From the IMG/VR virus record IMGVR_UViG_3300038327_000267, positions 1-47,212 of that record: a DNA stretch of 47,212 bases. One strand, given 5' to 3'. Positions 1 to 45,176 of the stretch are shown in pieces (the stretch's first letter is position 1; the number at the start of each line of letters is the position of its first letter). The notes under the pieces were generated by a model that saw only the letters and a list, made by a program, of their open reading frames with translations, did no database searches and was not told where the DNA came from. This DNA comes from a virus. A program made the position numbers and the translations under genes.

Positions 1-1843
1 TATATAAATCATAAAAATAAGTTTTGAGCTTACTGATTCTGTCGAACGCAATTACTCCGCTTTCGAGCTCTAGTCTTTCGTGAACACCATGTTGCTGGCT
101 ATTCTCAACGAATGAGATAGTAAGGTGGTATAGTTCAGGATTATCGGGATTAGATTCTACCGAGATAGATTGTGGACTAACTTGATAAACACCTAGGTCG
201 TTTAAAAATTTGTTCTTTATAATTGCAGAAGAATTCTGAATGGTTCCTTTTCTTTCATAGTCTAGCATTCTTGCTTTTAATGCCATTAAATCAGATATCG
301 CTTTTTTACTTTTAGTTATAAACATTAATTGAAAACCGTTATTGTGCATTCCCATATACTGTACATTGGGGAACTTAGAATTCATTATTGGTATTTCAAT
401 AGATTTCGAATTAAATGTGCCTGAAATCTTTTCTAAGATAACTCCAATTTCTTTCCTAGCACCCCAGTCTTCTAAAAGGTCGTATTCTGAGCTATCGTAT
501 TTGAGTAATCCTTCTATAAAATCGCTATAATATAGGCTGAAGTAGTTTGGATTAGTCAAATACTGGGCCAGCTCGTCTACACCAGCCAGCTGCTTTTCAC
601 TTTGCTCCTTTTGCTTTTTACTAGCTAATGAGACATAGTATTTGCCCCAATTGCAATCAGATGCGTCGAAGGAAGGCTTGGCAGCATCGTCTCTATACAT
701 TACATTGCCGTAAGGGAAAGCCGGCGAGTTCACTATCGAGAAGGCAAACCGGGCTAAAATAGCACCTGGCATATCTTGAAGTGTTTGAACACTTGCGCTT
801 TTAAAAGATACAGGGATAGGAAATATCGGCAATTGCTTAGCTATTTTATCGACTAGGTCCACCCCTGGTACATTGTTGAAAGCTTTTACAGATAAGCTTT
901 CGACAATGGCGCTAAGTCCAATGTCTATATCTGGATCACTGTTTATCACCAACTGCTGAATCTCTTCATAGCTAAGTGCATTGAGTCGATCTTCCACGTA
1001 CTGTCTTTTGGATTGCTTCGCATTTAATGAGGGCGTCTCAATTTCCTGATTGACACTGGCTGTTCTAAGCAGGGAGTACAGTCCGGGAAAAGTATACTCT
1101 GATAAAAAATAACTAGAGAGCACGGGGGAGAGTATTGTATTTATAGGCAGATATTTAAACATATTAAGCAAGTTGATAAAACTGGGGTATCCAGCTGCAT
1201 CTGAAGCGAAAGCCTCATATGTGGGGTATAGAATGTCTAAATGAACGATATGTTTAGATCTGTGGTCAGGAGAAAGCCCTACGGATTTTGATCGTACGGT
1301 CGGTATTGATTTATTTAGCAATTGTTCTTGAATTTTAATAGAAGAGGGTATTACCCTGGGATATGTAGCTGGGTCACCAGCCTTGATTTCTACCTCTTCG
1401 TTAATAGAATAAAATCCTATTTTTGTTAAGTCCTCAATCTCGTTAGTTCCTTTCGACAATTCTGCTAGCTCTGTATATTTTTTACCGATTCTCCCGATAT
1501 CTGCTGCTAGAGCCTTATAGTCCTGATTGTCTACTCCGGTCATATCAATTAGTTCTCCCCAGCTACCTTGAGTGGAGGGATCAGCGCGTCTTTGGGCCCT
1601 GCTATTTGAGTTAAGTGCGTAGGCTACAAAAGACTTTTGGTATTGTTCGCCTTGATCACCAGTCAATGTATTCCCGGTGTCCTGGATGATGTCGACGCCG
1701 TAAAGGATAGAATTAATGTCACCGGCCAATAGATACTGAGTCATATCAGATCTAGTGAACGTACGTGGTGTCCCATTTATCCCAGTATCGGATAAAAAGT
1801 TCATGACCGTATCTATAGTTGGCGAATCCCCAGTGTTTGGCAT
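1..1843 (-). CDS. Large tail/baseplate-like structural protein, 5' part (runs off left edge)
   Basis: An open frame of 614 codons with no stop continues past the left edge; I translated it by hand in the frame of the ATG at 1843-1841. That ATG overlaps the stop of the giant RNA-polymerase-like gene by one base (TAATG), so the two are probably translationally coupled. The product begins MPNTGDSPTIDT and is soluble-looking, with no signal peptide or obvious membrane helix. Near the left edge the segment around PNVQYMGMHNNGFQL, then a long helix and a beta-rich stretch ending SFVENSQQHG, resembles tail hub or baseplate proteins of large phages as I remember them. Its position after the giant tail-region genes fits a baseplate or hub role. 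The function is inferred mainly from position, and no enzymatic motif was seen. Confidence 0.6.
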   Translation of the reverse strand, partial: MPNTGDSPTIDTVMNFLSDTGINGTPRTFTRSDMTQYLLAGDINSILYGVDIIQDTGNTLTGDQGEQYQKSFVAYALNSNSRAQRRADPSTQGSWGELIDMTGVDNQDYKALAADIGRIGKKYTELAELSKGTNEIEDLTKIGFYSINEEVEIKAGDPATYPRVIPSSIKIQEQLLNKSIPTVRSKSVGLSPDHRSKHIVHLDILYPTYEAFASDAAGYPSFINLLNMFKYLPINTILSPVLSSYFLSEYTFPGLYSLLRTASVNQEIETPSLNAKQSKRQYVEDRLNALSYEEIQQLVINSDPDIDIGLSAIVESLSVKAFNNVPGVDLVDKIAKQLPIFPIPVSFKSASVQTLQDMPGAILARFAFSIVNSPAFPYGNVMYRDDAAKPSFDASDCNWGKYYVSLASKKQKEQSEKQLAGVDELAQYLTNPNYFSLYYSDFIEGLLKYDSSEYDLLEDWGARKEIGVILEKISGTFNSKSIEIPIMNSKFPNVQYMGMHNNGFQLMFITKSKKAISDLMALKARMLDYERKGTIQNSSAIIKNKFLNDLGVYQVSPQSISVESNPDNPELYHLTISFVENSQQHGVHERLELESGVIAFDRISKLKTYFYDLY

Positions 1844-4800
1844 TAAAAACTGGATCCCATCTTATTGGCTAGGATTTGTTCGTAGTTATTAGATGACATT
1901 ATATCATTATTCGTATAATTGAAAGAACCTTGAATATTGGAAACATACCCATTATTTAAGCCAACCTCGTTGGCTATTCCCCTGAAGTCTATCGCATTAT
2001 CCATTTTGCCCGATACATTAAGTCTAGTTTTTTGACCATAATTTCTTGATAATCTGATTACATTCGTATTTTGTATTGCATCTGAGTTAAAGCTGGGGTC
2101 CTGAGGACTAGACATTATAGGCGGAGGAGGCATAGTATTCGCACTAGCGTAACCCATTGCAGGTACGCTGTAGGGTGACACAGAGCTAATACTGGACCGA
2201 ATAGTCTCTACTGCTGCAAGTCCGCCAGCTATAGCTGCCGCAGGCTTAAAAAATCTGCTCTGACTAAATTTACGGAAAAATTCTCCACTTATAAGGGCAT
2301 TTGTATAAGCGGATTTTGAGGTGCTAGCGCCACCAATTCCTTTTGATCCATGGACTATTGAGTCTGCAGCACCATCTTCAGCTACCGCTGCCGCCATGGC
2401 TCGTGTAGCTACATTTTGGCGCGCCCTAGCTGCTTCTACACTTCTCGGTTGATCGTCAATTTCTTCGATCAGCGTGGGATCCATGGTTAATGCTTGAATA
2501 AATCCTCTGGCAGTAGCACTTTGGAGTCCACTAAGTTCGCCAGCAGCGCTACCACCTGTCCGCCTCATTATGGTATCAAAATCTTTAAGTATATTTTCTC
2601 CCGGCATTCCTCCGGGATCATTTACATATAGGCTACCGACGGCATTACTGAATAGCATCTGCCTGGCTAGTTCTCGTGAGGCTACCGTAAGATTCTCCTG
2701 TTGCCCTGCATATCTTTGCAGAAGACTTAGCGATACCGGATCTATATCGCTGAGTTCATCAGTGCCAATCATACCTGCGGCTTTTATAAGCTTCTCGGCT
2801 AGATCGTTGACCAGGTCGGTACCACTCTGTCTCGACCCTTCCCCGTGATGGATAATCGAATTGACCATCGCATATTGGCTCTCGGCGCTTGCTCCCCCAA
2901 AATCATCCGAATGTTTTATTAATAGATCGGCGATCTCAATTCCTACGCTTGAATCTCTCCCATGTCCGGCTTTCTTCAAGAACATGTACTTTATCAAGTT
3001 TCTTGCATCTGTATAGTTATATGTTGCCAATCGAGTTATCTCATCACCTTCTTGACGAATGAATAAGGATGAAGCCTCGTGTATGAATTTTGTAAGTCTT
3101 TCCCCCTTCTCTACCCCAAGAGCCCTTACCATATTATTCTGCAGTACCTGTCTTCCTTTGCTGTCTTGAGACATGTCCATGGTCATCCCGATCATATGAT
3201 CTACATATGATCTGCCCGCCAAATAAGATTCAATGATAGGTGTACCATGACCATGTGCTGATAACTTCATCATAGCGTCGAAGCTATGTACTCTTATTCT
3301 ATCTCTGCTGGCTCCTCCCGCCGCCATACTGTCTAGCAGTTCATTCACATTGCCGGTATTTATTTGGTCAACACCAAAGGCCTCTTTGATTAATGTTTCA
3401 TCTGCACCCGCCAGGCCAGTTAATATGTCCTCCATCAGTTTTTCTTGTCCCCGATATATCCCTTTCATATTTTCTTGGCTCAGAGAGTTTAATCTAAATA
3501 CAGTAACCGAATCTTTATCGTAGTCACCATCCATGGCATGTTTAGTCATTGACTTATGTAGGAATGCACTAAATCCAAAATCAAATTCGTCTAGGCCTTC
3601 CTCCAGATAGTCATCTACAAGCTTTATTTTCATGGCCATCATTTGGCGGCCACTAGATATGGGCTCTCTGTATACATGCGTATAATAATCATCCCCGGCT
3701 TTGAGCTTCTCAATAATGGCGTCTATACCAAACCCGGTGGTTTGCAAGGCTTCCTGCTGGCCCAATCGACCTCCATCGGCCATACGCCTCAAGGCAGCTT
3801 CAGTCAAACCAACTTCAAATACTTCTAGTCCGGGGAGTGTTTGAAGTCTAAACCTGCCTGCAAAATCTACATATTTAGAGCTAAGCTCGGCGTTATAATA
3901 AGTTCCTGCCTTAGACAGGGTATTTTGCGCCATATAGCCATAGAGCTTATTTAGTCTCCCGCTAATTCTATCTGCATCCTCTGTAACATCCATACCCCCT
4001 GCTCGATTAGCTTCCATCTCTTCGATTTCAACAAGTAACTTCAAGTAATATGCTTTAGTTTTCTCCGTAGTGCTTATGCCTTCCCCAAGAGATTCAGATA
4101 TTTGCTTCTCCAGCACACTGACGTCTTCCTTCATCGACCTGCTGATTCTTAAAAATCCCTTTTCAGACTTAAGATCCATACCCTTTGCCGAAGGAACAAG
4201 CATGGGTCCATCCGGCCCCATCATTAGCATTGCCTGATCAGATAGAACAGCAACGCTTCCTTCGGCATTTGTTTTAACAAGACCTAGAATTGTCTCCGAC
4301 AATTGACCAATAGATACCTTCTGTCCGCTCGACGGAGAAGAAAGCAGTGCTGAAAGTGTACCTTTGTTGACTTTGCTAGTTAGTGTTTTATCAACATTAA
4401 CGCCTCGCCTCTTTTGCGCTCTTTCTGATTTTGTCAGATTATCTTCGTTAACAGTTATTATTTGCTCATCAAAGAGTCCAACCATCTTATCGGTCTTTGG
4501 ATCTTTACCTAAATATCTTCCGGAGATACGTTTTACCGTACCTATTTCTTCTCCTTCAAAGGACTCTATAATCTTTTTATATGCACTACCTTTCGCCAAG
4601 ACAGGTCTTGCCTCCTCGTGTGGCTGTGTGGCCATTTGTTTTATCAGACTATGTTCATTGCCTGGCATAAACATGGCCTTATTACTGCGCATATAATCTA
4701 GACCCACACGTTTTTTGGCCTTTCTGATCCTTTTCGCGCGCTCCTCAGCTGACCGGGGTTCTCCACTGACAGGATCTGCGAAGTGCGACATGTCGAGGGA

Positions 4801-7698
4801 TTCGGATAAGAGCATTAACTCTCTTACCCTTATTTTTGCGGTAGAAGTGCCTAACTTTGCTAAAGGCTCTTCTTGTCTTATCATTGTTTGGCCACCGAAA
4901 GAAACAATGGCGGCAGTTGTTAGGTCTATTGCTACATTGGAAAAACCTAGGGCCCTGAGGAGTTGCTTTTGTTTCTTTAACGCGTCTATGCTTTTCTTTT
5001 CGGCTCCTGTAATGTTGGGTGTATCTAGCTCGATACTTCTACCGTCTTCTATTACCTTATTGAACGATTTTGTGTGCTTTAGCAGTGTTTTGGGATCAGG
5101 TAACTCGACAAGAGTTCGCTTTCTGAAGTCAGAGACTATCTCTTGATGACTCTGCTCGAGCTCGGCTAGAAGGTTCTGAAAGTTTGTCGTGAACACTTTG
5201 TCGTCTATCATATTGTCAAATTTAGAACCTAAGCCCGCGAATTGATAAGTACTGTCGCCGCCCTCTAGGGTAACCATTCTGTAGTGGCCACCAAAGTGCT
5301 TAATGAGTTTCTCGGCAGCATCCCGATTAAATCTGCTGGCTTGAGTCGATGTATCAATCGGGGAATAGGGCGCAGTTGAGGTGCCCCCCCTAATCACTTC
5401 AGCTAAATTATTTAACAGAGTAGTGTTAAGTCCATGAGAAGGTCTTTTGGGATCAGGGCTTAAACCGAGGTCTCCCATGACAACACCTAATTTAGTTAAC
5501 TTCTCTAGCTCCTCTCCACTGAAGCCGAGATTTGACAAGATGCTTCTAGTCTGATCTTTAGTTATAATATTTTGCGCGCTAAATCGTTGCCCCTCAAATA
5601 TATATCCACTATCCATTCTGACTTTTGATCCATCATTGACAATTAGTTGAAGTTCACCTGTCGAACTGTTGATTCTAACTCCATGAATTTGGGTAGTCTT
5701 TGGATCCATACCCCGCTGCTTAACTGATCTCAATATATCATTCGCATGCGTTAAATCTCGGTGCTTTGCGGCAGTCGTGGAGACTGATTTTTGCCCGCTC
5801 TGGAATTTGAGTTCCTGGTCCACGGGAAGTGCAGCAGCATCATCTGTGATAATCTTATGTGCTACGCCATCCTTGTCCGTTAGCTCTATGTGCTTGAATA
5901 AAGCAAAGGGAGTATCAAAGTTTAGTGTTTGGGTAACACTTGCAGTGGATCTTGCCTCTTTTATGGCGTCATATAATTCCTGAGACAGGATAGTTCGCAT
6001 GTTCCCGTCTGCTCCATACGTACCCATTGATATATTTACTGTTGCAGATGTTCTACCTTTTCCAGTCGAGGGATCAATATCAAGTCTTTTGGCAAGTTCT
6101 CCAGACATCATAGCGCTGGCGTCCCCGAAAATAGATTTGTTTAATCTATCATCGAGAAACTGTATGCCGACAGATCTAGTTCCTAGGCCAACTTCACCTT
6201 CACCACCTAGGGCTTCGACATTTGCTTTAATGCCCGGTATGATACTTGTCTCGCCTTCGCTCAGATCTGGGGCATGGCCCATAATGGCAGCTACGGATCC
6301 CGGTAATTCATAGACATTATTTATTTTTACCGGGGCAGCAGATAGATAGAACTGTCTTCCTTTTTCGTAGTTGACTTGCGCCGGTAGAATAGAAAGCTGT
6401 TTTATATCTGCGTTTGTTAGTTTTATAAAAGTTCTTTTTGCATCCTCTGTGACTATGGCATTATTAAATACCCATTCTGCGCTTTGTGAAGCAAACATAA
6501 GATTAAGTTCTTTAATAAGATCTTTTTCTTTTTTCGGCGCTGTCGGGTCGGCTATAACTCTTTGTAAGTGGGCTAGAACAGCGTTCTTCGCACTATCGTG
6601 TGCACTCATAAGAGTTGCAACCGACTGACGATCTCCTCCGGATACTGAGGCTCTTGTCTGACTCGCTCTTCTTGCCCTGGCTTCATTGTGTAATAGATTG
6701 AAAAGTTCGGTCCCCTCAGGGACGTCCACTAGGACTTGATTAGCAAATCCTAATTGATGCCTAGTCAAAGGATTTTTGCCAGAGTATTGCATTGGATTAC
6801 TAAACTCTACGGAATCGGTAACCCTGACAGCCTTAGTATCTTCTCCAGGCATTCGTGATTTTTGTAGATTTAATAATGTTCGCACTTCCGTCTCTAATCT
6901 CCCGCGTAATTCTGTCTCGGGGAGATTCTTAATCTTCTCGCTCTTCATTATCTTATTTAATTCATCATAAAAATATTCATTGAATTGTTTTATATCTTTG
7001 AGGTGAAAGCCTGTTGCTGTTTCCTCTGCTGCTCCTGTCTCAAAATATTTAGCAATAGTTGGGACATGGGTGTATACTGATCCGCGGCGGAACATTAATA
7101 GGCCACCAACTCCTTCCTCGGCCAATTGAGTAGCAGTTTTAGCGCCCGCTCTGCCCGCGTCTAAGCTTTTACCAAATAGAGGTATATGGACGGGGTGACT
7201 CATCTCCATCCCGGAGATCTCTAGTCCACCACCAGACAGATTTATCGTCGCGCCCTTTTGTCGCAACGTAGTGAATAGATTCTCTAGTCCTTCTGTTGCA
7301 TATCCAAGCTTTTTAAGCTCACCCGGAGCACCTATGAGGGTGCTTTTTGTGTTAAGCGTTGTGCTTATATACTCATGTGGTCCAGATATTGGTAGATTGA
7401 GATTGTTAACTTTGTTAGCAGGTCCCCGTGAAGCAGTTACTACGTCTTGGTCCGCATGGATGTTAAGTTTTTCGTTCAAAACTTCTTGTAGTTGACCCTG
7501 CTTCAATTGGCTTTTGACACTTTCCGGGCCGATAGTCACTCTCTTCTTCAGCCATCCTTTGTCATCTGCGCTTAAGCTGGCATATTCCTCCTTGGTTATT
7601 CGACCCTGTTCAATTAAGTCATTTATAAGTAGTTGATATGCTCTTGTTGCTGGATTCTTTGTATCGTCAGCACCTGTGTACGGGGGGGTCTGTGGCAT
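1843..7698 (-). CDS. Giant single-chain DNA-dependent RNA polymerase-like protein (beta/beta-prime type), probably virion-associated
   Basis: The product has 1951 residues; the ATG at 7698 follows an AAGGAA ribosome site and lies one base after the upstream stop. Residues 1094-1118 read AQKRRGVNVDK-TLTSKVNKG-TLS. This matches the catalytic beta-subunit segment (DKxxGRxGNKG), with K1104 and K1112 spaced by eight as in bacterial beta. About 230 residues later comes VYREPISSGRQMM (R1344, P1346), like the NRxPTLH element of beta-prime, then DGDYDKDSVTVFRL with D1392, D1394 and D1396 at the place of NADFDGD. Having both barrels in one chain, beta part first, matches YonO-like and crAss-like phage polymerases. 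The first 900 residues and last 400 show no motif I recognise; residues 1818-1832 are a short hydrophobic Ala/Gly segment before a Pro/Ser-rich tail. The gene lies in the tail module, so early transcription after injection is the likely role (inference). Oddly, the Gly of DFDGD is Lys1395. Confidence 0.85.
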   Translation of the reverse strand: MPQTPPYTGADDTKNPATRAYQLLINDLIEQGRITKEEYASLSADDKGWLKKRVTIGPESVKSQLKQGQLQEVLNEKLNIHADQDVVTASRGPANKVNNLNLPISGPHEYISTTLNTKSTLIGAPGELKKLGYATEGLENLFTTLRQKGATINLSGGGLEISGMEMSHPVHIPLFGKSLDAGRAGAKTATQLAEEGVGGLLMFRRGSVYTHVPTIAKYFETGAAEETATGFHLKDIKQFNEYFYDELNKIMKSEKIKNLPETELRGRLETEVRTLLNLQKSRMPGEDTKAVRVTDSVEFSNPMQYSGKNPLTRHQLGFANQVLVDVPEGTELFNLLHNEARARRASQTRASVSGGDRQSVATLMSAHDSAKNAVLAHLQRVIADPTAPKKEKDLIKELNLMFASQSAEWVFNNAIVTEDAKRTFIKLTNADIKQLSILPAQVNYEKGRQFYLSAAPVKINNVYELPGSVAAIMGHAPDLSEGETSIIPGIKANVEALGGEGEVGLGTRSVGIQFLDDRLNKSIFGDASAMMSGELAKRLDIDPSTGKGRTSATVNISMGTYGADGNMRTILSQELYDAIKEARSTASVTQTLNFDTPFALFKHIELTDKDGVAHKIITDDAAALPVDQELKFQSGQKSVSTTAAKHRDLTHANDILRSVKQRGMDPKTTQIHGVRINSSTGELQLIVNDGSKVRMDSGYIFEGQRFSAQNIITKDQTRSILSNLGFSGEELEKLTKLGVVMGDLGLSPDPKRPSHGLNTTLLNNLAEVIRGGTSTAPYSPIDTSTQASRFNRDAAEKLIKHFGGHYRMVTLEGGDSTYQFAGLGSKFDNMIDDKVFTTNFQNLLAELEQSHQEIVSDFRKRTLVELPDPKTLLKHTKSFNKVIEDGRSIELDTPNITGAEKKSIDALKKQKQLLRALGFSNVAIDLTTAAIVSFGGQTMIRQEEPLAKLGTSTAKIRVRELMLLSESLDMSHFADPVSGEPRSAEERAKRIRKAKKRVGLDYMRSNKAMFMPGNEHSLIKQMATQPHEEARPVLAKGSAYKKIIESFEGEEIGTVKRISGRYLGKDPKTDKMVGLFDEQIITVNEDNLTKSERAQKRRGVNVDKTLTSKVNKGTLSALLSSPSSGQKVSIGQLSETILGLVKTNAEGSVAVLSDQAMLMMGPDGPMLVPSAKGMDLKSEKGFLRISRSMKEDVSVLEKQISESLGEGISTTEKTKAYYLKLLVEIEEMEANRAGGMDVTEDADRISGRLNKLYGYMAQNTLSKAGTYYNAELSSKYVDFAGRFRLQTLPGLEVFEVGLTEAALRRMADGGRLGQQEALQTTGFGIDAIIEKLKAGDDYYTHVYREPISSGRQMMAMKIKLVDDYLEEGLDEFDFGFSAFLHKSMTKHAMDGDYDKDSVTVFRLNSLSQENMKGIYRGQEKLMEDILTGLAGADETLIKEAFGVDQINTGNVNELLDSMAAGGASRDRIRVHSFDAMMKLSAHGHGTPIIESYLAGRSYVDHMIGMTMDMSQDSKGRQVLQNNMVRALGVEKGERLTKFIHEASSLFIRQEGDEITRLATYNYTDARNLIKYMFLKKAGHGRDSSVGIEIADLLIKHSDDFGGASAESQYAMVNSIIHHGEGSRQSGTDLVNDLAEKLIKAAGMIGTDELSDIDPVSLSLLQRYAGQQENLTVASRELARQMLFSNAVGSLYVNDPGGMPGENILKDFDTIMRRTGGSAAGELSGLQSATARGFIQALTMDPTLIEEIDDQPRSVEAARARQNVATRAMAAAVAEDGAADSIVHGSKGIGGASTSKSAYTNALISGEFFRKFSQSRFFKPAAAIAGGLAAVETIRSSISSVSPYSVPAMGYASANTMPPPPIMSSPQDPSFNSDAIQNTNVIRLSRNYGQKTRLNVSGKMDNAIDFRGIANEVGLNNGYVSNIQGSFNYTNNDIMSSNNYEQILANKMGSSF

Positions 7699-12371: not shown

Positions 12372-13034
12372 CTACTCCGTAGATTCTACTGAATCCCATC
12401 CGCTGGGTACGGATAATGAATTCAATGTATTCGGTAGTTGCCTCCTGATATTCCTCTCTTCAGATCTCTTTGCAACCCTCATCTGTTTTTCTGCGTATTC
12501 AGTGTCTAAAAATAGTCTTAGGTCAATAGGCTGCTGAAGAAAAGTTTCCGCTATAGCGAATAACTTGGCTACTTCCGTAAGACTCATTGAGTCAAATTCC
12601 TGAGGAGTTATTCCGCTGAAATGCCCCATAACTACCGCCTGAAGCACTGAATCTAATGAGTTGACATTTATCCTGGCTAGAGAAAAGGCTTCTGCGATAT
12701 CTTCATTAGAAGAAAATCCCGATATGTCTATTATACATTTAGATAGCTGGTCAAAACACATGCAAGGCAGGTCGAATAGGCTATTTTTCTCTTCATTAGA
12801 CCAGTCTATCTCTGGCCAGATGATACATGATCTAAGCAGCTCCTCTGTCGGGTCACAGCCTAATTCTATGTCGCTTTGTAAAAATAAAAATTCCTGACGA
12901 GTTAAAGGCCTAATTAGCACATTGGGACTAACCTTTAGCTCGTCAGGCTGACCAGAGAGATCAATTAAATAAATTTCTTTATATTTTCTCCTAAGCTCAG
13001 GTATTTTTTGTTTAAGTCTGGGATCAAGAAACAC
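12372..13034 (-). CDS. Tail assembly chaperone-like protein, second of pair
   Basis: The product has 220 residues. The start is a GTG at 13034 with AAGGTG upstream, placed one codon after the TAA of the preceding gene and in the same reading frame; an ATG two bases earlier is out of frame. The segment VLIRPLTRQEFLFL near residue 40 parallels FIIKSLNRREYRNL of the preceding protein, a pattern of small pre-tape-measure chaperone proteins. The rest is helical and acidic, with a basic C-terminal region. It sits between tube genes and the giant tail genes, as chaperones do. In many phages the pair is joined by ribosomal frameshifting; here the two frames coincide, so only reinitiation or stop readthrough could link them. 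The chaperone role is inferred from position and the shared motif. Confidence 0.65.
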   Translation of the reverse strand: MFLDPRLKQKIPELRRKYKEIYLIDLSGQPDELKVSPNVLIRPLTRQEFLFLQSDIELGCDPTEELLRSCIIWPEIDWSNEEKNSLFDLPCMCFDQLSKCIIDISGFSSNEDIAEAFSLARINVNSLDSVLQAVVMGHFSGITPQEFDSMSLTEVAKLFAIAETFLQQPIDLRLFLDTEYAEKQMRVAKRSEERNIRRQLPNTLNSLSVPSGWDSVESTE

Positions 13035-13037
13035 ATC

Positions 13038-13511
13038 TTACACCTTAATAGGCGCAGGTGCGTTTTGGTAGCCAGAAATTGCCAGTATGGAGTCGTGAAG
13101 TGTCGTTGCTACCCCGGAAGCTTTATTCCTAAGCTGATCAAGATCTAGCGGGGGATAGACAACACCTTGTACTGCAACAGCTTCTTCGCTCATCATAGAG
13201 AGAGTTGCTCTGACTCCATCTGGGTTTGCGGAGTCTGTTGCCGCCTCAACTTCTTTAGCCATAGCTTCTGCCTGTGTCTGAACAAGATTTCTGTATTCTC
13301 TCCTGTTTAGGCTTTTGATAATAAACCATTCATCTGCAGAGTTAATAACATTCACGTTATTAAATTGCTGCTTAGCAGACTGAACCATAGAAATAAATTC
13401 ATCACTCCATTCAAGATCCTTAGTCTGTTGCCAAGTAACCTCAAGTCCAGGAATCTTGTCTTCCATATTTTTAAAAGCTGGTTCGACTTTTGTCTCAGTA
13501 GTTTCTTGCAA
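13038..13511 (-). CDS. Tail assembly chaperone-like protein, first of pair
   Basis: The product has 157 residues. The start is a TTG at 13511 supported by a strong AAGGAG five to six bases upstream; the next in-frame ATG, 16 codons later, has no ribosome site. The protein is small, acidic and helical, without membrane segments. FIIKSLNRREYRNLV in the middle resembles the I+xLxRxE block of the following 220-residue protein, suggesting related folds. The location between tube-fold genes and giant tail proteins is that of the first tail assembly chaperone (G-like) in many phages. I saw no slippery heptamer near its end. Confidence 0.65.
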   Translation of the reverse strand: MQETTETKVEPAFKNMEDKIPGLEVTWQQTKDLEWSDEFISMVQSAKQQFNNVNVINSADEWFIIKSLNRREYRNLVQTQAEAMAKEVEAATDSANPDGVRATLSMMSEEAVAVQGVVYPPLDLDQLRNKASGVATTLHDSILAISGYQNAPAPIKV

Positions 13512-13565: not shown

Positions 13566-14255
13566 CTATTGTACTCGTGCTACCCGGCGTTCTGCAACGA
13601 TTTCTTTTGCAAAAAAGCTATATACTTCGTATATAGGTGAGCCGGAAGAAGAGATATCTCCGCCGCCAGTAGCGGAAGCGGATATCACTTGGGACTGCCC
13701 GACTATATATGCATCTTTGATAGTAGTTTCTATATGATCTTCATTTGACATGTCACCATAAGAGATTACAATATCGAAAGTGTTTTTCATCTGATAAGGC
13801 TGCATAGGTGGCACCTTAGAACCACCGCCACTACGTACTCGTATCGTGTTTCCGAAAAGAGTTGGATCATACTGTTCTAGGTTTGGAATACTATTCACCA
13901 GATCAGTAAAATTTTTAGCGGCTAAATCTGCTACAAATGCGACCCTATCCGTACCAGTTTTTGAGAAAAACGCAGCTAGCTCCGGGTTGTGAATGCCCGC
14001 TTCTTGGTCCGTACTAGTCATTTCAGCAATTAGTTTGGTCAGGTATTGAGGATGTGTATAATTAAGTATAATTCTTCCTGTAACTACTTTTCTCCCATTT
14101 GATATACCGGAGAAGGTTTCATCCGCCCATCCATACAGCGGCGTTTTAGAATCTCTTGCATCCCAATCGACCCTAAACGCATCTGATACCTTAAGTCCTC
14201 CTATGTAAATGCCTACGTTACATGGAGTATAGTATCTCTTTTGGGATTTCGCCAT
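13566..14255 (-). CDS. Tail tube-fold protein, third copy
   Basis: The product has 229 residues with an ATG start; GAGGTA lies upstream. Near residues 40-65 the order YGWADETFSG-NGRKVVTGRIIL matches the equivalent blocks of the two upstream proteins (small residues, G-R/K, then a beta strand with G), the signature I use to group all three. The rest is beta-rich, with a stretch (IVISYGDMSNEDH, then IKDAYIVGQSQVIS) typical of tube or baseplate-tube proteins that list partner strands late in the chain. It probably forms a tube or tube-initiator/terminator ring rather than the main tube. Which of the three is the main tube cannot be told from sequence alone. Confidence 0.7.
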   Translation of the reverse strand: MAKSQKRYYTPCNVGIYIGGLKVSDAFRVDWDARDSKTPLYGWADETFSGISNGRKVVTGRIILNYTHPQYLTKLIAEMTSTDQEAGIHNPELAAFFSKTGTDRVAFVADLAAKNFTDLVNSIPNLEQYDPTLFGNTIRVRSGGGSKVPPMQPYQMKNTFDIVISYGDMSNEDHIETTIKDAYIVGQSQVISASATGGGDISSSGSPIYEVYSFFAKEIVAERRVARVQ

Positions 14256-14318
14256 TCTGATTACCTCAATTTCATAAAAATACTTAAAGATTAGAAACTG
14301 ACTACTTAATTTATTTTA

Positions 14319-14924
14319 TTATATATAGAGGTCGTGATCTACGCTTTGTTCTGGGGCATTCCGTGCTCTATGACGTGCGATAGCAGCTGAATTACCCCCG
14401 GGGTTCTGCTTATTGGACAATGACCCCTTCTCTACCGATAGAGGAAAATATTGCTCGGCGACATAGGTAAAAGTGGATTCGGTATATATATCGTCTATAG
14501 AAAGCGTGGTTCCAAAGTTAGTCAGGGTAATTCCAATCAGAATAGCGTGAGCAATTACGCCTTGTACTTCGTTATGGCCTTCAAAAATCATATCGAATTT
14601 AGCTATTTGGTCAACGAATAAAGTTGGCTCCCTCATTGGTTCACCATCCTTTACTGACTTATCCGCGAAGTACGCTACGAAGGCGTCTCTTAGCCCCGTA
14701 GTAAATACCATAGACCCGGCAATTGTTCTAGACCCTCTAGCATACTCGATCGGGTTTGTTTCACCAATCCGTCTTATGGGCATCACGCTTCTCGCCGAAG
14801 TTACTGTAATTGTTTGAAGTCGGTCTTCTATTTCTACTATCTGATTCGAGCTATCCCCTCTTAAGCTTATCAAGCATAATATATCTGAGCCAGCAAAGGA
14901 GATAGGTTGATCTATTAAAGGCAT
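14319..14924 (-). CDS. Tail tube-fold protein, second copy
   Basis: The product has 201 residues with an ATG at 14924. RRIGETNPIEYARGSRTIAGSMVF near residues 51-74 closely parallels YTMGSANPRSFSRGKRGIAGSLIF in the upstream gene product, so the two are paralogues. Later strands (ILIGITLTNFGTTLSIDDIYTESTFTYVA) also align with the upstream protein (MNAGSGMSIDDITTDESCTFVA). This is the fold used for tubes and baseplate-proximal tube rings. Unusually, no ribosome site lies at normal distance from the ATG; a purine run (AAGGAGGGG) sits some 41 bases upstream, separated by a stable hairpin (entered separately). Confidence 0.72.
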   Translation of the reverse strand: MPLIDQPISFAGSDILCLISLRGDSSNQIVEIEDRLQTITVTSARSVMPIRRIGETNPIEYARGSRTIAGSMVFTTGLRDAFVAYFADKSVKDGEPMREPTLFVDQIAKFDMIFEGHNEVQGVIAHAILIGITLTNFGTTLSIDDIYTESTFTYVAEQYFPLSVEKGSLSNKQNPGGNSAAIARHRARNAPEQSVDHDLYI

Positions 14925-14933
14925 TTAAAGCTA

Positions 14934-14974
14934 GCAGGAAGAAGAAAATTAATTCCTCTTCCTGCCCCTCCTTT
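14934..14974 (-). promoter_or_regulatory. Split ribosome binding site: Shine-Dalgarno, hairpin, then start codon
   Basis: On the transcribed strand AAGGAGGGG (14974-14966) is followed at once by a hairpin with a nine-base outer stem (14934-14942 with 14957-14965), one mismatch, three more pairs and a six-base loop. Nine bases then separate the hairpin from the ATG at 14924. Folding would bring an otherwise distant Shine-Dalgarno site to normal spacing, as described for some phage T4 genes such as gene 25. Read on the plus strand, the hairpin followed by a T run resembles a terminator, but no plus-strand gene exists to end here. Confidence 0.5.
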
Positions 14975-15018
14975 TTTTATTTACAACTAAAATCACTAAA
15001 TTACAATTCTAAAACTGA

Positions 15019-15696
15019 TTATGTGGTAGATGGCGCAGGTGCTACTTTGATTTGATTTTGATGATCTACTTGACCTTGGGCGTACCAGGGAACGATCTGG
15101 GTAGCAACAAATGTACAGCTTTCATCAGTAGTAATATCATCAATTGACATCCCACTACCGGCATTCATTATTTCAACATTCCTGATTTGCATCCTGCAGA
15201 CATGACCATATTCATTAGCTGCAGAAATTGTTATGTCGAATGGAGGTAGCTGGTCATGATATTCAGGTTTTGTACTAGTAAGACCAAGCGAGAGACTGAC
15301 CTGCGCATTTGTGCTGGTAGTGGCCACCCCGGCCGCCGTGATTGCCTTAGAAGCTTGAACGCTGTTGCTGCCATTGTTCTGACTATTCAACAGAGAGCCT
15401 TTTGAGGAATCTTTTGTCTTCAGGAAGACTCCATCGGAAGTCCCTGCGCCTCCATGAATGCTCAATAATGCAGATCTGTCAAAAACTAGAAAGATTAGAG
15501 ATCCGGCAATACCTCGCTTGCCCCTAGAGAAAGATCTGGGGTTAGCGGAGCCCATAGTGTACAGGGGGGCCTTTTCTCTAGTCACGGTGTAAGAAACACC
15601 CTGGACTTCTCCAACAGTATTCGGACCAAACGTCACTATCATGTCGACGCCACTAAAAGAATTGTAAGTTTGTGTTACGGCTGTCTGGGTGCTCAT
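15019..15696 (-). CDS. Tail tube-fold protein, first copy (candidate main tail tube)
   Basis: The product has 225 residues. The ATG at 15696 overlaps the last base of the sheath stop, so it is coupled to the sheath gene. It shares the block YTMGSANPRSFSRGKRGIAG (about residues 46-65) and the strand MSIDDITTDESCTFVATQ with the next gene product. A Ser/Gly/Asn-rich loop of about 50 residues in the middle distinguishes it. In contractile phages the tube gene directly follows the sheath gene, which makes this the best candidate for the main tube. The remaining 94 bases before the next gene hold a split ribosome site but no gene. Confidence 0.72.
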   Translation of the reverse strand: MSTQTAVTQTYNSFSGVDMIVTFGPNTVGEVQGVSYTVTREKAPLYTMGSANPRSFSRGKRGIAGSLIFLVFDRSALLSIHGGAGTSDGVFLKTKDSSKGSLLNSQNNGSNSVQASKAITAAGVATTSTNAQVSLSLGLTSTKPEYHDQLPPFDITISAANEYGHVCRMQIRNVEIMNAGSGMSIDDITTDESCTFVATQIVPWYAQGQVDHQNQIKVAPAPSTT

Positions 15697-17282
15697 TATC
15701 CTAACCCTTCACCTTTGCTGAGAGAAACAGTAGTATTGATTGTCACCATCTCGAAGGCCGGAATCATGCTGAGATCGATAGTTACTTCCCCAAGAACTTG
15801 TTGATCTGGGGTAGCCACTACTGAAAAGTCGTAGCCATTAATTGCGCCCCGCCTGAGAGCTTTTTGTAGATCAGTGTCTATTGAACTCTCTAGAGCTGCG
15901 AGAAACGGTCCGCTAATAGGCTTACCGATAAAGGCCTCTCCGGCATCTCTGACGACTTCTGCCATTGCCTGAGTCGTTCTTATTGTAGTGATTCGGACAT
16001 AGTCGGATCTGGCGCCAATTCCTGCATTGAACGCTCCAGTAATCCCGGAAGTAACTACGTATCCCGCAGGTTTCCCAACCATGGAGACAAGCCTATGTTG
16101 TAAAAGCTTTTTGGCCTGTGTCGAGCTAGTTGCTCTAAGTGGAGCTATGCTATTCACTGGAGCGTTAGTAACACCGATATATGGAGCAGTGCTTGCGACA
16201 AGGCCGGCAAATCCAGCTGAGCCATTACTGTTGATATATGTTAAAGAATCCGCACCCTTCAGGTTAGCAAATTTAGTGGCTTCAGAACCAAAAGCCCTAG
16301 AAACTCCTGCTACAACGCTGACATAGGATCCGAGATCTACTTTGTTTCCATCCGAGTCCACGGCGAGAGCATTGTCTATGTCCGCTGCTTGGAAATCGGC
16401 GAGATAGGTGGCATGAGGCGCAGTCTTGTCTGAGACATTTTGAACAGATCCGTGAAGATAGGCGTCCCACTTGGCATACATCGCGCCAGCGACAGCAGTA
16501 TAGGTCCCAGTAGCACTGCTGCTTGTTCCATTAAAGATGCCAGTGTCGCCCGCTGATTCAGTAAGGTAATTTACGTATTCATCGACTAATGCAAGGCTAG
16601 GCGTGTCAAAGAATGCACCTTCGGCTCCACTGAATGCAGTTACGGAAGTAGCACTATTTTCTTGCCACATGAGTTGTTTTGCAACTTTACCTATTGGAGT
16701 TACTCCAATAACGCCAAAGGCGGCGTTAGATTCTTTAGTTTGCTGGTAACAAAAATTACCTAATTGTTTAGTAAAGTTGAGGTCGGATCCAACATGATCT
16801 GTAAGACCAGTATGCTTTGAATTTCCCGTATCGTATCCACTGACTGTGGAAAAACCATCCGCGTAAGCAGAAGCTAAATAGATGACATCGACCTGATGAT
16901 TTGCGAGAATACTATACGTGGCAGCAAGCTCCGTATGTAGATTTGAAACGTAAGTAGAATCAATAGTTCCCTCGAATGGTGTATTTCTGCCTGTCGAAGA
17001 AACTACGACTTCGACATTTTGCGCACCTGCTCCAATTACTTCTTCAATTGCAAGAGTAAGTTCAGAAGGTGTGCCGTCATCGTTTCTAAGGTTGCGCATT
17101 GCAACACCTATATTGAGTATTGCCAGGGGCTCATTCAAGGGGACTACTACGCCGCTATGATTAAACCCTCCGATAATAGTTACCTTAGGCCCTAAATCGG
17201 GCGGGGCAATCCTGAGTCCAAAATCATTGATAGTAACATCTACTCTTGGTAAGTTGTCACTATTTCCAAGATTAGCAACCAT
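15696..17282 (-). CDS. Contractile tail sheath protein
   Basis: The product has 528 residues with an ATG start. The C-terminal part is characteristic of sheath proteins: a strand/helix block around YVRITTIRTTQAMAEVV, then FIGKPISGPFLAALESSI, then a run ending in GYDFSVV, a GEVTIDL strand and a final beta hairpin INTTVSLSKG. The N-terminal region (PKVTIIGGFNHSG, then PLAILNIG) fits the part that contacts the tube. The middle 250 residues are a variable Ser/Thr/Ala-rich domain that should face outward. The next gene encodes a tube-fold protein, the usual sheath-tube order. This gene is the clearest evidence for a contractile tail. Confidence 0.88.
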   Translation of the reverse strand: MVANLGNSDNLPRVDVTINDFGLRIAPPDLGPKVTIIGGFNHSGVVVPLNEPLAILNIGVAMRNLRNDDGTPSELTLAIEEVIGAGAQNVEVVVSSTGRNTPFEGTIDSTYVSNLHTELAATYSILANHQVDVIYLASAYADGFSTVSGYDTGNSKHTGLTDHVGSDLNFTKQLGNFCYQQTKESNAAFGVIGVTPIGKVAKQLMWQENSATSVTAFSGAEGAFFDTPSLALVDEYVNYLTESAGDTGIFNGTSSSATGTYTAVAGAMYAKWDAYLHGSVQNVSDKTAPHATYLADFQAADIDNALAVDSDGNKVDLGSYVSVVAGVSRAFGSEATKFANLKGADSLTYINSNGSAGFAGLVASTAPYIGVTNAPVNSIAPLRATSSTQAKKLLQHRLVSMVGKPAGYVVTSGITGAFNAGIGARSDYVRITTIRTTQAMAEVVRDAGEAFIGKPISGPFLAALESSIDTDLQKALRRGAINGYDFSVVATPDQQVLGEVTIDLSMIPAFEMVTINTTVSLSKGEGLG

Positions 17283-42176: not shown

Positions 42177-45176
42177 CTACGTGGTAGCTGTCGCTGTACG
42201 TTCTGCCCTAGATCCTGGATGGTATCCGCTTTCTCTGGGGCTACTTCTTATTATACCAGCAAACAGATGATTTGTTTTATTACCCGAAGGCCCCCTGCCC
42301 TCAGAGCTACGATTTCTGAACTTCTTTTGAGCTACCCTGGGGTCAGTGCCTCTAAATACATTTGTGTTTTTATTTCTTTTCTTATAGTCGCCCAGTCCCT
42401 TTATGGCAGAATACTGATTCTCTCGTTCAGTTGAATGCACTAGCCCATTTTGCATAGAAGTATATACACCTGGATTTCTTGAATACTTATTCTGAGTCAT
42501 ATTTCTAATCATATCTTGAGACTGCTGATATACAGGATATGTGCTAATCTGATATCCCTGCGTCTTAAGATTAGTTGCGACGTTTCTAACTATCGCCACC
42601 TCGTCCATAAGTCTTTTGATATTAACGTCAATTTTAAAATATTTTATTTTGCTAGGATCATTTCTCGCAGCATAACCTATCAGTGCGTATGGTTGGTTTA
42701 ATGCATACGCGTAAAAGTTCGCTTGAGATACGTGCTTGTCTTTAGGGTATGATAATTCCTTCAACGCATCGAAGTCGGCTACAGTCTTAATTTCTAGCGG
42801 AACACCGGAATTTAATATTATGTCAACGTGTCCTGCGACATCTAACTCAGAAGAATAGATATAGTGTTCAGTATTTTGTGCAAGTTTTTTCTGCAGATAC
42901 TCTTGCTCAATAATACCGTGGACTATACTTCCTCTTTCTGAGGAATTTGTATAATCATCAAATAATTCCCTACCAATAAGCTGATTGGCTAATTGGTCTC
43001 CCTTATATCCCAGCATGGAAGACCTAAGCGTATCTGAGCCTATATCGAAGTTATATATCAAATTATTTATAGCCATGTTATTCATATGGCTATTTCCTGA
43101 ACCAAAAGAGTGCAAGAGCGGATCTCCAGAAGGAGACATGCCCTCCAACGTATTGTACTTCGACCCCTGGTCCTTTATATCTCCAGTCCTGTTTGCTATT
43201 AAAACGATCCCCGAAAGAACAAATGCAGACTTTGCAAAAATACTTGCTTTACCTCGAAATCCCGGATCCACGCTCCCCACTATGCCTGATTTTCCAGAGT
43301 GATTCTTTGCCGAAGGATCCATGACTTCTTCTGGTGTTCTTCCAACGAGAGATGCTAGTTTTCCCTGAACTATTGGATCGAGCTCACCCCATGTTCCATA
43401 TTTCTGAGCAAGGCGATCCTCGCTGCTTTTAATTACATTTTCATGAAATACATCGCTCATAAAGGATTGAACATCAGGATCCGCTATATTTTTATATCCC
43501 TGATCTAACACATTTCTTAATATTCTAGCCATATTGTCAACATCAATACTTGCTGAGTGTCCTCCTGTTGTTTCTAACGTATTTAATTGAACTGCTAGAT
43601 TGTCATCGATCAAACCAAATATCTCTTGCAAAGGTCCACTTGGCCCACCAGCATTTATAGTCTCGAGATAGTTGTCCTTGGCGGTCATTATACTTCCGAG
43701 AAGACCAGTATTCCCCGAGCTTAAGGTAGCTCCGCCCATGAAGTCGGGTAAAGTTCCGCCCAACGCATTCCCTAGATGCTTGTGAACAAGATGTAGTGCG
43801 GTGCCTTCGGGGGCAGGGGGAGGAGAGCCAAAGTCTAATAGAAGGCCGGGAACTATCCTGCCTGGGCTGGATGGCATTACGGCTCTTTGCATAATTTCAT
43901 TTGCCAGGTCTGCTTGATCAAGAGCACGTATCTCAAGCATACTTCTTCTGAGAGTTTCTGTGGGACCAAGTTCCTCTAATGGATTAATTAAATTATGTAA
44001 TAACTCAGCAACAGCATCAACTATTTTTCCTTCGTTGCTCTGGACATTGCCAAGATGCCCGCCGAAATCTCTAAAGCCCTGTTCTTGATTTTGTCCAGTT
44101 ATCCTGCCTATAATTTCAGCTTTTATATCTGCGACTGTTTGACTAGAACGTCCCTCACCCTCTTTGACTCTCTCGGCTAAGTTGCCAAGGAGCGTACTCT
44201 CCTTAATATATTGCGAAGGTAAACCGTCAGTGACTTGCCCACTTAGAGTGCCGTATACCCGGTCGGCGATTTCTCTTAACTCAGTACTATTGCCTAAACT
44301 TCTCTGAATCGCTCCGTGGTCCAAATTCATAAAATGGTTTTTGTCACTTCTTTTAGTCAGCTCAAACATAATATCTCTAAATTTATCTGAAGCTTCAACC
44401 AATCTAATCGATCCAGACTCATCAAATAATCTCGTAAATTTTCGGAGTAAGTCCTCATCTCCCGTTTCATCTATGGTTTGTGCAAAAACACGCATATCGA
44501 ATGGCGCATTCCATGCCCGCATAGCCAGCGTCTTACCTTCGCTCGCGGCTTTCTCTTTGGCCCCCGATATATAATCAACAAAACTATGTAGCGCTGCCGC
44601 CCTATCTGGTCCTTTTCCTATCGCCTCAGATTGTGATTCTATATCAAATAGATTTTCGGCTAGATTTCTATTTAGCGTACTACCCCTAATGGTTATCCCG
44701 GTATCCCACTGTGCCCGGTTTGGCTCAGAAGGACCAAAAGACCACAATCCATGCAAGGCATCCCTGGTTTTAGCCGTGTCGCTAGTTTGGAATCTTCCTT
44801 CCCTGCTAGCCAATTGAGGATGAACTTCTTCTCCCGAAATATGTTTTTTAATTTGTTCATGGCTTAAAGTTTTCCATTTAACTTCGCCGGATTCCAGGTC
44901 GGCAGTAGTATCTTTATATTGAAACTCGTATCTGATCTCTTCTGCTAATTTTTTTGCTTGCTCGTTACCGTCATAAAACGGTGTTTTTATATGAATAGAA
45001 TCTTCTTCTGTTTGCCCAAATATCTCTATAATATTTGGAGTATTTGGTCTCGTGAGCGACGCCCCTTTGTTGCGGGTAAGCCGACGAGAGCCCATCCAAA
45101 TGTCTAGGACTTCTCCTTTTTCAAAACCTACAGTTTCAAAATCGAAATCTAGAAAGGTATACTTTAAATCATCCAT
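42177..45176 (-). CDS. Nuclease fusion: DEDD exonuclease-like N-terminus and PD-(D/E)XK C-terminal domain
   Basis: The product has 999 residues; the ATG overlaps the last base of the preceding stop. Residues 9-15 (LDFDFET) give a D-x-E motif as in DnaQ-type exonucleases, and RAWNAPFDMRVF (N223, D227) matches the second motif; the third is not clear. Residues about 740-860 form a Cas4/RecB-like nuclease: H753 and E757 in SIVHGIIEQEY, D785 in AGHVDIIL, E795-x-K797 in LEIKT and Q818 in SQANFYAYAL. Between them are about 400 residues without motifs and one hydrophobic stretch (SAFVLSGIVLIA, near 650). It sits among head genes rather than replication genes, so a virion-linked role such as DNA processing at packaging or entry is likely (inference). 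The long basic tail looks disordered. Confidence 0.75.
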   Translation of the reverse strand: MDDLKYTFLDFDFETVGFEKGEVLDIWMGSRRLTRNKGASLTRPNTPNIIEIFGQTEEDSIHIKTPFYDGNEQAKKLAEEIRYEFQYKDTTADLESGEVKWKTLSHEQIKKHISGEEVHPQLASREGRFQTSDTAKTRDALHGLWSFGPSEPNRAQWDTGITIRGSTLNRNLAENLFDIESQSEAIGKGPDRAAALHSFVDYISGAKEKAASEGKTLAMRAWNAPFDMRVFAQTIDETGDEDLLRKFTRLFDESGSIRLVEASDKFRDIMFELTKRSDKNHFMNLDHGAIQRSLGNSTELREIADRVYGTLSGQVTDGLPSQYIKESTLLGNLAERVKEGEGRSSQTVADIKAEIIGRITGQNQEQGFRDFGGHLGNVQSNEGKIVDAVAELLHNLINPLEELGPTETLRRSMLEIRALDQADLANEIMQRAVMPSSPGRIVPGLLLDFGSPPPAPEGTALHLVHKHLGNALGGTLPDFMGGATLSSGNTGLLGSIMTAKDNYLETINAGGPSGPLQEIFGLIDDNLAVQLNTLETTGGHSASIDVDNMARILRNVLDQGYKNIADPDVQSFMSDVFHENVIKSSEDRLAQKYGTWGELDPIVQGKLASLVGRTPEEVMDPSAKNHSGKSGIVGSVDPGFRGKASIFAKSAFVLSGIVLIANRTGDIKDQGSKYNTLEGMSPSGDPLLHSFGSGNSHMNNMAINNLIYNFDIGSDTLRSSMLGYKGDQLANQLIGRELFDDYTNSSERGSIVHGIIEQEYLQKKLAQNTEHYIYSSELDVAGHVDIILNSGVPLEIKTVADFDALKELSYPKDKHVSQANFYAYALNQPYALIGYAARNDPSKIKYFKIDVNIKRLMDEVAIVRNVATNLKTQGYQISTYPVYQQSQDMIRNMTQNKYSRNPGVYTSMQNGLVHSTERENQYSAIKGLGDYKKRNKNTNVFRGTDPRVAQKKFRNRSSEGRGPSGNKTNHLFAGIIRSSPRESGYHPGSRAERTATATT

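Follow-up and report, generated by a model that had tools for sequence, protein, structure and literature searches.

Giant tail-slot proteins with an RNA polymerase-like catalytic core in a lineage of contractile-tailed phages

The giant gene and its tail module

A 47,212-base stretch of viral DNA (IMG/VR virus record IMGVR_UViG_3300038327_000267, referred to here as the window) encodes a 1951-residue protein among tail genes. The question raised by this locus is whether the protein is an RNA polymerase (RNAP) that has both catalytic barrels in one chain and is carried in the virion, as a preliminary description had proposed. When the open reading frame (ORF) was checked, its coordinates (1843..7698) and residue numbers were found to be correct; the strand, which had been left unstated, is minus, with the frame real when read from 7698 to 1843 and the plus strand over this interval crowded with stop codons. 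Kin of the gene were detected in three near contigs and about 50 syntenic loci. In reading order the window carries terminase, portal, protease-like, major capsid protein and sheath genes, followed by three tube-like genes, two small genes, the P0005 gene, the RNAP-like gene and a last gene that runs off the window edge. The tail sheath (15696..17282, minus strand) matched phrog_16991 at an E-value of 3e-46 and, together with the tail-tube-like, portal, TerL and major capsid protein genes, bore out the proposed sheath-bearing phage context. Three tail-tube-like paralogues (13566..15696, minus strand; phrog_9206, with a counterpart named tail tube in Bacillus phage KLEB27-3) stand in tandem in this single tail module, and KLEB27-3 likewise has three. 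Two small genes (12372..13511, minus strand) take, by position, the place of the two-gene tail chaperone of phage 0305phi8-36 (PMC2147016). Immediately upstream of the RNAP-like gene lies P0005 (7700..12367, minus strand), which encodes a conserved giant structural protein of 1555 aa and served as the synteny anchor; at the other side, a gene truncated at the window edge (2..1843, minus strand) appears hub- or baseplate-like, judging from its place in the gene order and a weak match to a PHROG (E = 2e-4). Farther away, a 999-aa protein (42177-45176, minus strand) matched a PHROG annotated 'CRISPR/Cas system associated' / exonuclease at residues 747-865 (E 1e-13).

The gene order of the window agrees with the published description of the structural arm of 0305phi8-36 (PMC2147016), and distant relatives of the sheath and P0005 were found in Moorella phage MTATph1, KLEB27-3 and Acinetobacter phage ME3. 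The slot of the RNAP-like gene was constant in about 50 loci, flanked by the same structural gene on one side and by the next large gene on the other.

A family found by synteny and its beta'-type core

Single-sequence searches with the window protein gave no match in Pfam, PHROGs or PDB, no homologue in IMG/VR and phage records, and no tblastn match in 50,697 phage records; a search of the genome collection likewise turned up no close kin of the window group. Synteny was the productive route, with 74 loci obtained by searching with an alignment of the neighbouring P0005. In 51 of 54 IMG/VR loci, the next giant gene after the P0005-type gene had a DxDxD motif at 60-86% of its length, compared with 6.3 expected from shuffles, while the neighbouring giant gene, taken as a control, had this motif in 0 of 67 cases against 7.0 expected. 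Chains encoded in the slot range from about 1,470 to 3,260 aa. Three family members (L100, L101 and L102, from Paenibacillus sp. TCA20, Alicyclobacillus shizuokensis and Oceanobacillus profundus) were each found on a contig of its own, 195-206 kb long, in a bacterial genome assembly; certain jumbo phages of this kind may thus be maintained as extrachromosomal prophages.

The aspartate triad and RxP element of the preliminary description were found where they had been placed. The putative aspartate triad D1392-Y-D1394-K-D1396 (3511..3525, minus strand), the presumed equivalent of beta' NADFDGD, reads DYDKD within DGDYDKD, and is preceded by R1344-E-P1346 (3661..3669, minus strand), the RxP element of a beta'-type barrel. 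Both elements were invariant in the three nearest relatives, which are 32-33% identical to the window protein. All three aspartates were also invariant across 50 sequences, which had been chosen for having DxDxD (the unselected test being the 54 syntenic loci). Among 21 divergent family members the R, P and three D were the sole invariant columns, and in a second set of 11 members RHP and the three D were among ten invariant columns.

Profile analysis related this region to the largest subunit of RNAP. The 21-member profile, when compared with PDB, matched the beta' of the phiKZ non-virion RNAP first (E 0.0034), followed mostly by archaeal and eukaryotic largest subunits. With a 50-member profile that included the window protein as a row (A9), all 41 PDB chains matched were RNAP largest subunits, the best again being phiKZ β' (E = 3e-6). 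Because the rows of A9 were centred on DxDxD, a decoy profile was built from 44 DxDxD-centred stretches of other ORFs; it matched calmodulin, and RNAP was absent among its 60 best matches. In Pfam, RNA_pol_Rpb1_2 was the family matched by the most members of the A4 set (4/21, best E 5e-4), and KLEB27-3 gp034, the orthologue in that phage, matched it at RxP-DYDGD under the curated cut-off. The compact G2/G7 subgroup profile had no PDB match, and the full-length profile of subgroup G4 matched only through an N-terminal DEDD-type 3'-5' exonuclease, which in this subgroup (L034:12251-19033 and kin) is fused before the RNAP core, with invariant D113/E115 and a YNG..FD block; this domain was not detected in the window protein.

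The window protein was tied to the larger family by iterated profile search. Starting from the 21-member profile and searching 2,035 ORFs, the search gained residues 1207-1455 of the window protein (3334..4080, minus strand; the putative beta'-type double-psi barrel region) in the third round at E 7e-5, once the relative L005 was in, and non-family ORFs were never picked up. A9 matched the window at 3397-3765 with an E-value of 9e-19, the window itself being one A9 row. Profile-profile comparison of the four-member window group with the larger group was weak alone (E 0.008-0.07); the alignment with E 0.07 was in register over 133 columns, from a pre-barrel helix through RxP to the triad.

Structure prediction was informative for a relative. 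The AlphaFold model of the window protein, built from four sequences, had a pLDDT of 36 and was set aside as uninformative. The model of L034, from a 206-kb Paenibacillus contig and 13 sequences, reached a pLDDT of 75 and a pTM of 0.68, and all 50 PDB matches listed for it were beta'/RPB1-type chains of RNAP (E from 3.7e-5). As the alignments mostly covered about 250-300 columns, TM-scores were low, and the predicted fold speaks for the beta' barrel and the parts around it rather than for the entire enzyme. Overall, a DxDxD metal site with RxP upstream, its invariance, the 41 of 41 RNAP profile matches and the fold of the relative agree, and at the family level these comparisons establish a beta'-type catalytic barrel; for the window protein itself, the barrel was assigned from conserved motifs, synteny and iterated profiles.

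A possible beta-type half and the C-terminal module

The lysine argument for a second barrel failed. K1104 and K1112 (4363..4389, minus strand), put forward as a beta-type pair in DK-x7-KG, are present as numbered and fall in a gapped, variable stretch; since all three nearest relatives lack the pattern, the two residues were discarded as catalytic, and their beta-type appearance is most likely a chance resemblance. Other lysines, K1127 and K1172, were invariant, in four sequences only. The latter lies in an invariant block at residues 1153-1172 (SDQA...GPM..PSAK; 4183..4242, minus strand), which by conservation is our best guess for part of a beta-type barrel. In the L034 model a strand-rich region with invariant lysines was predicted upstream, and a beta match was absent among the 50 PDB matches listed. 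Against a library of viral structures the best match of this model, extending across 1,164 columns, was to a siphovirus 'minor tail protein'. From the strand-rich upstream region with its invariant lysines and from such long viral matches, we infer that a beta-type barrel may be included in the chain. Of the claim of two catalytic barrels in one protein, the beta'-type half appears homologous to multisubunit RNAP by profiles and by the fold of a relative, and the lysine pair offered for the other half was not conserved; a single long chain does surround the beta'-type barrel, and a second subunit may yet be encoded beyond the 47-kb window.

Two ME3 proteins also matched the L034 model in the viral library. 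One of them is 798 aa, the same length as an ORF at 224453-226849 (minus strand) of NC_041884.1 (P0009, L125:14453-16849), which encodes a separate protein; the other, as judged from length, probably corresponds to the latter half of ME3 gp036. The 798-aa protein has a stretch, KAVTKGKPYLG...PDMAFGMNSFKAKQNG, that looks like a beta-type barrel, which raises the possibility that ME3 has a second polymerase in split form.

A hydrophobic segment about 107-141 residues ahead of the C-terminus, followed by a terminal domain, was detected in nearly all family members. A profile of this C-terminal module tied many members to the same-slot protein of L058 (E 9.7e-6, second round), and the module appears to be common to most of the family. 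L058 is taken to be 0305phi8-36, judged by its gene order and its separate PF05183 gene; the slot protein of that phage, gp146 (orf146), was assigned as tape measure mainly from tail length (PMC2147016). In the window protein the putative module (1846..2244, minus strand), with a hydrophobic G/A-rich segment about 130 residues before the end, is placed as in gp146, the match being weak (E about 0.1) and its position right. Gene order and the C-terminal module together place the RNAP-like core in the tape-measure gene slot, where the ruler role of the slot is itself an assignment.

In MTATph1 the counterpart gene (L002:30494-37868) was found to be interrupted by an IS21-type insertion with IstA/IstB-like CDS0028/CDS0029; CDS0027 corresponds to the exonuclease-like part and CDS0031 to the C-terminal module, with no DxDxD left in the pieces. 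CDS0026, whose size had suggested orthology, was rejected because it corresponds to the upstream gene; the true counterpart is the split one.

Alternative explanations and a candidate virion polymerase

We consider it probable, with some confidence, that the window protein is a single-chain, two-barrel virion RNAP that is housed in a contractile tail and leaves it together with the DNA. The alternative that survives best, though unlikely, is a tape-measure or other structural tail protein whose polymerase barrel has decayed and is an enzyme no more. The gene does occupy the tape-measure slot and shares its C-terminal module with an assigned tape measure, and its DYDKD deviates from the usual DxDGD. 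In addition, three relatives, 0305phi8-36 (L058:14029-21642), L025:13714-20382 and L059:13894-21996, keep the slot and the C-terminal module without DxDxD, the polymerase core being missing or replaced, which means that the slot can serve its role without a polymerase. Contrary to decay, however, the RxP and three aspartates are retained in very divergent relatives, and the DxDKD variant recurs in an independent subgroup (L056, L061, L062 and L078).

Less probable still is a late-made, intracellular, non-virion polymerase that lies in the tail operon by chance. The location of such enzymes can vary, as several relatives have two-barrel polymerases elsewhere in the genome: PF05183 (RdRP/YonO-like) matched above cut-off in 9 of 27 related records, at genes outside the tail slot, eight of these records having DxDxD in the slot and the ninth being L058. 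These additional enzymes are, however, better candidates for the non-virion role. The fixed slot in about 50 loci, the module held in common with an assigned tape-measure protein and the annotation of KLEB27-3 gp034 as 'structural protein' also argue against a chance location. As a separate observation, a relative (G002, the record of L009) has at 153984-154289 (minus strand) a 571-aa frame above the PF00623 cut-off, apparently a separate beta'-like polymerase. Last, a chance or calcium-binding DxDxD in an unrelated tail protein is very improbable for the window protein and practically excluded at the family level, for although the motif is short and occurs 0.35 times per shuffled copy of the window protein, its conserved position, its RxP partner, the RNAP-only PDB matches, the decoy control and the fold of the relative all speak against it.

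A working, single-chain, virion-borne polymerase is thus our best inference, backed by the precedent of Thermus phage P23-45. In this siphovirus, gp96 is a virion RNAP of known activity and structure that is fused to the tail tape measure and was discovered by a DxDxD scan of virion proteins (PMC10770324). As is proposed for the candidate described here, gp96 is a single-chain two-barrel RNAP within a giant tail protein at the tape-measure position (PMC10770324); unlike the candidate, gp96 serves a non-contractile tail and is a 5,002-aa chain with an N-terminal RNAP, whereas in the window family tails are contractile, chains are about 1,470-3,260 residues long, and the core falls in the C-terminal half, with a short module at the C-terminus. 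Sequence similarity between the window protein and the P23-45 protein was undetectable by tblastn in the phage collection. P23-45 also has a non-virion RNAP, for which a candidate occurs in 8 of the 27 related records that were searched, and a tail-slot gene with a separate PF05183 polymerase resembles, by analogy, the virion/non-virion pair of that phage. The arrangement had been put forward as new; a tape-measure-fused virion RNAP was already known from P23-45 (PMC10770324), and the novelty lies in the contractile tail and in a widespread family that stands apart.

Other systems share part of this organization. Phage 0305phi8-36 has the same order of two-gene chaperone, structural protein, slot gene and hub, and the same C-terminal module in gp146 (PMC2147016), but gp146 is devoid of DxDxD and the phage has a separate YonO/RdRP-like gp99. 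The gp66 of crAss-like phage phi14:2 is a single-chain two-barrel RNAP and virion component (PMC7886860, PMC10770324); its gene, however, lies within a transcription block, outside a tape-measure slot. YonO of SPbeta and PF05183 (QDE-1-like) proteins have both barrels in a single chain and a DxDGD-type motif, yet the window protein, which had no Pfam match, and its tail-slot family went undetected by PF05183, whose matches fall at other genes. The RNAPs of jumbo phages phiKZ/AR9 were the best sequence-profile matches in PDB, but are split across several polypeptides, unlike the apparently single chain of the window family.

Based on these comparisons, the RNAP would occupy the tape-measure position in a lineage of jumbo phages with contractile tails and be built into the tail, where the C-terminal hydrophobic and terminal module may dock it beside the hub. 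It would then be ejected along with the phage DNA and transcribe the earliest phage genes ahead of the host polymerase or in its place, with a Mg site at D1392/D1394/D1396. Catalytic activity, virion presence, ejection and early transcription are each predicted for the window protein from this reading. Since an RNAP-like catalytic core occupies the tail-ruler gene slot, phages of this family probably inject their own transcription enzyme together with their DNA. We see about an even chance that a virion polymerase in this slot is a general strategy of contractile-tailed jumbo phages of the 0305phi8-36/ME3 lineage, with ruler and enzyme in one chain and an ancient, very divergent clade of single-chain RNAPs passing down the tail tube to initiate phage transcription.

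The assignment of gp146 of 0305phi8-36 as tape measure deserves a second look in this light, and the passage of a polymerase through the tail tube becomes a question in its own right. These results point to a large, previously unrecognised family with the catalytic core of cellular RNAP in the tail-ruler slot, extend the two-barrel RNA polymerases by a deep branch, and suggest that the link between polymerase and tape measure in P23-45 is general. Candidate virion RNAPs are thereby available across numerous jumbo myophages, among them the isolated Bacillus phage KLEB27-3 and, with less secure evidence, Acinetobacter phage ME3, so that host-independent early transcription can be put to a direct test.
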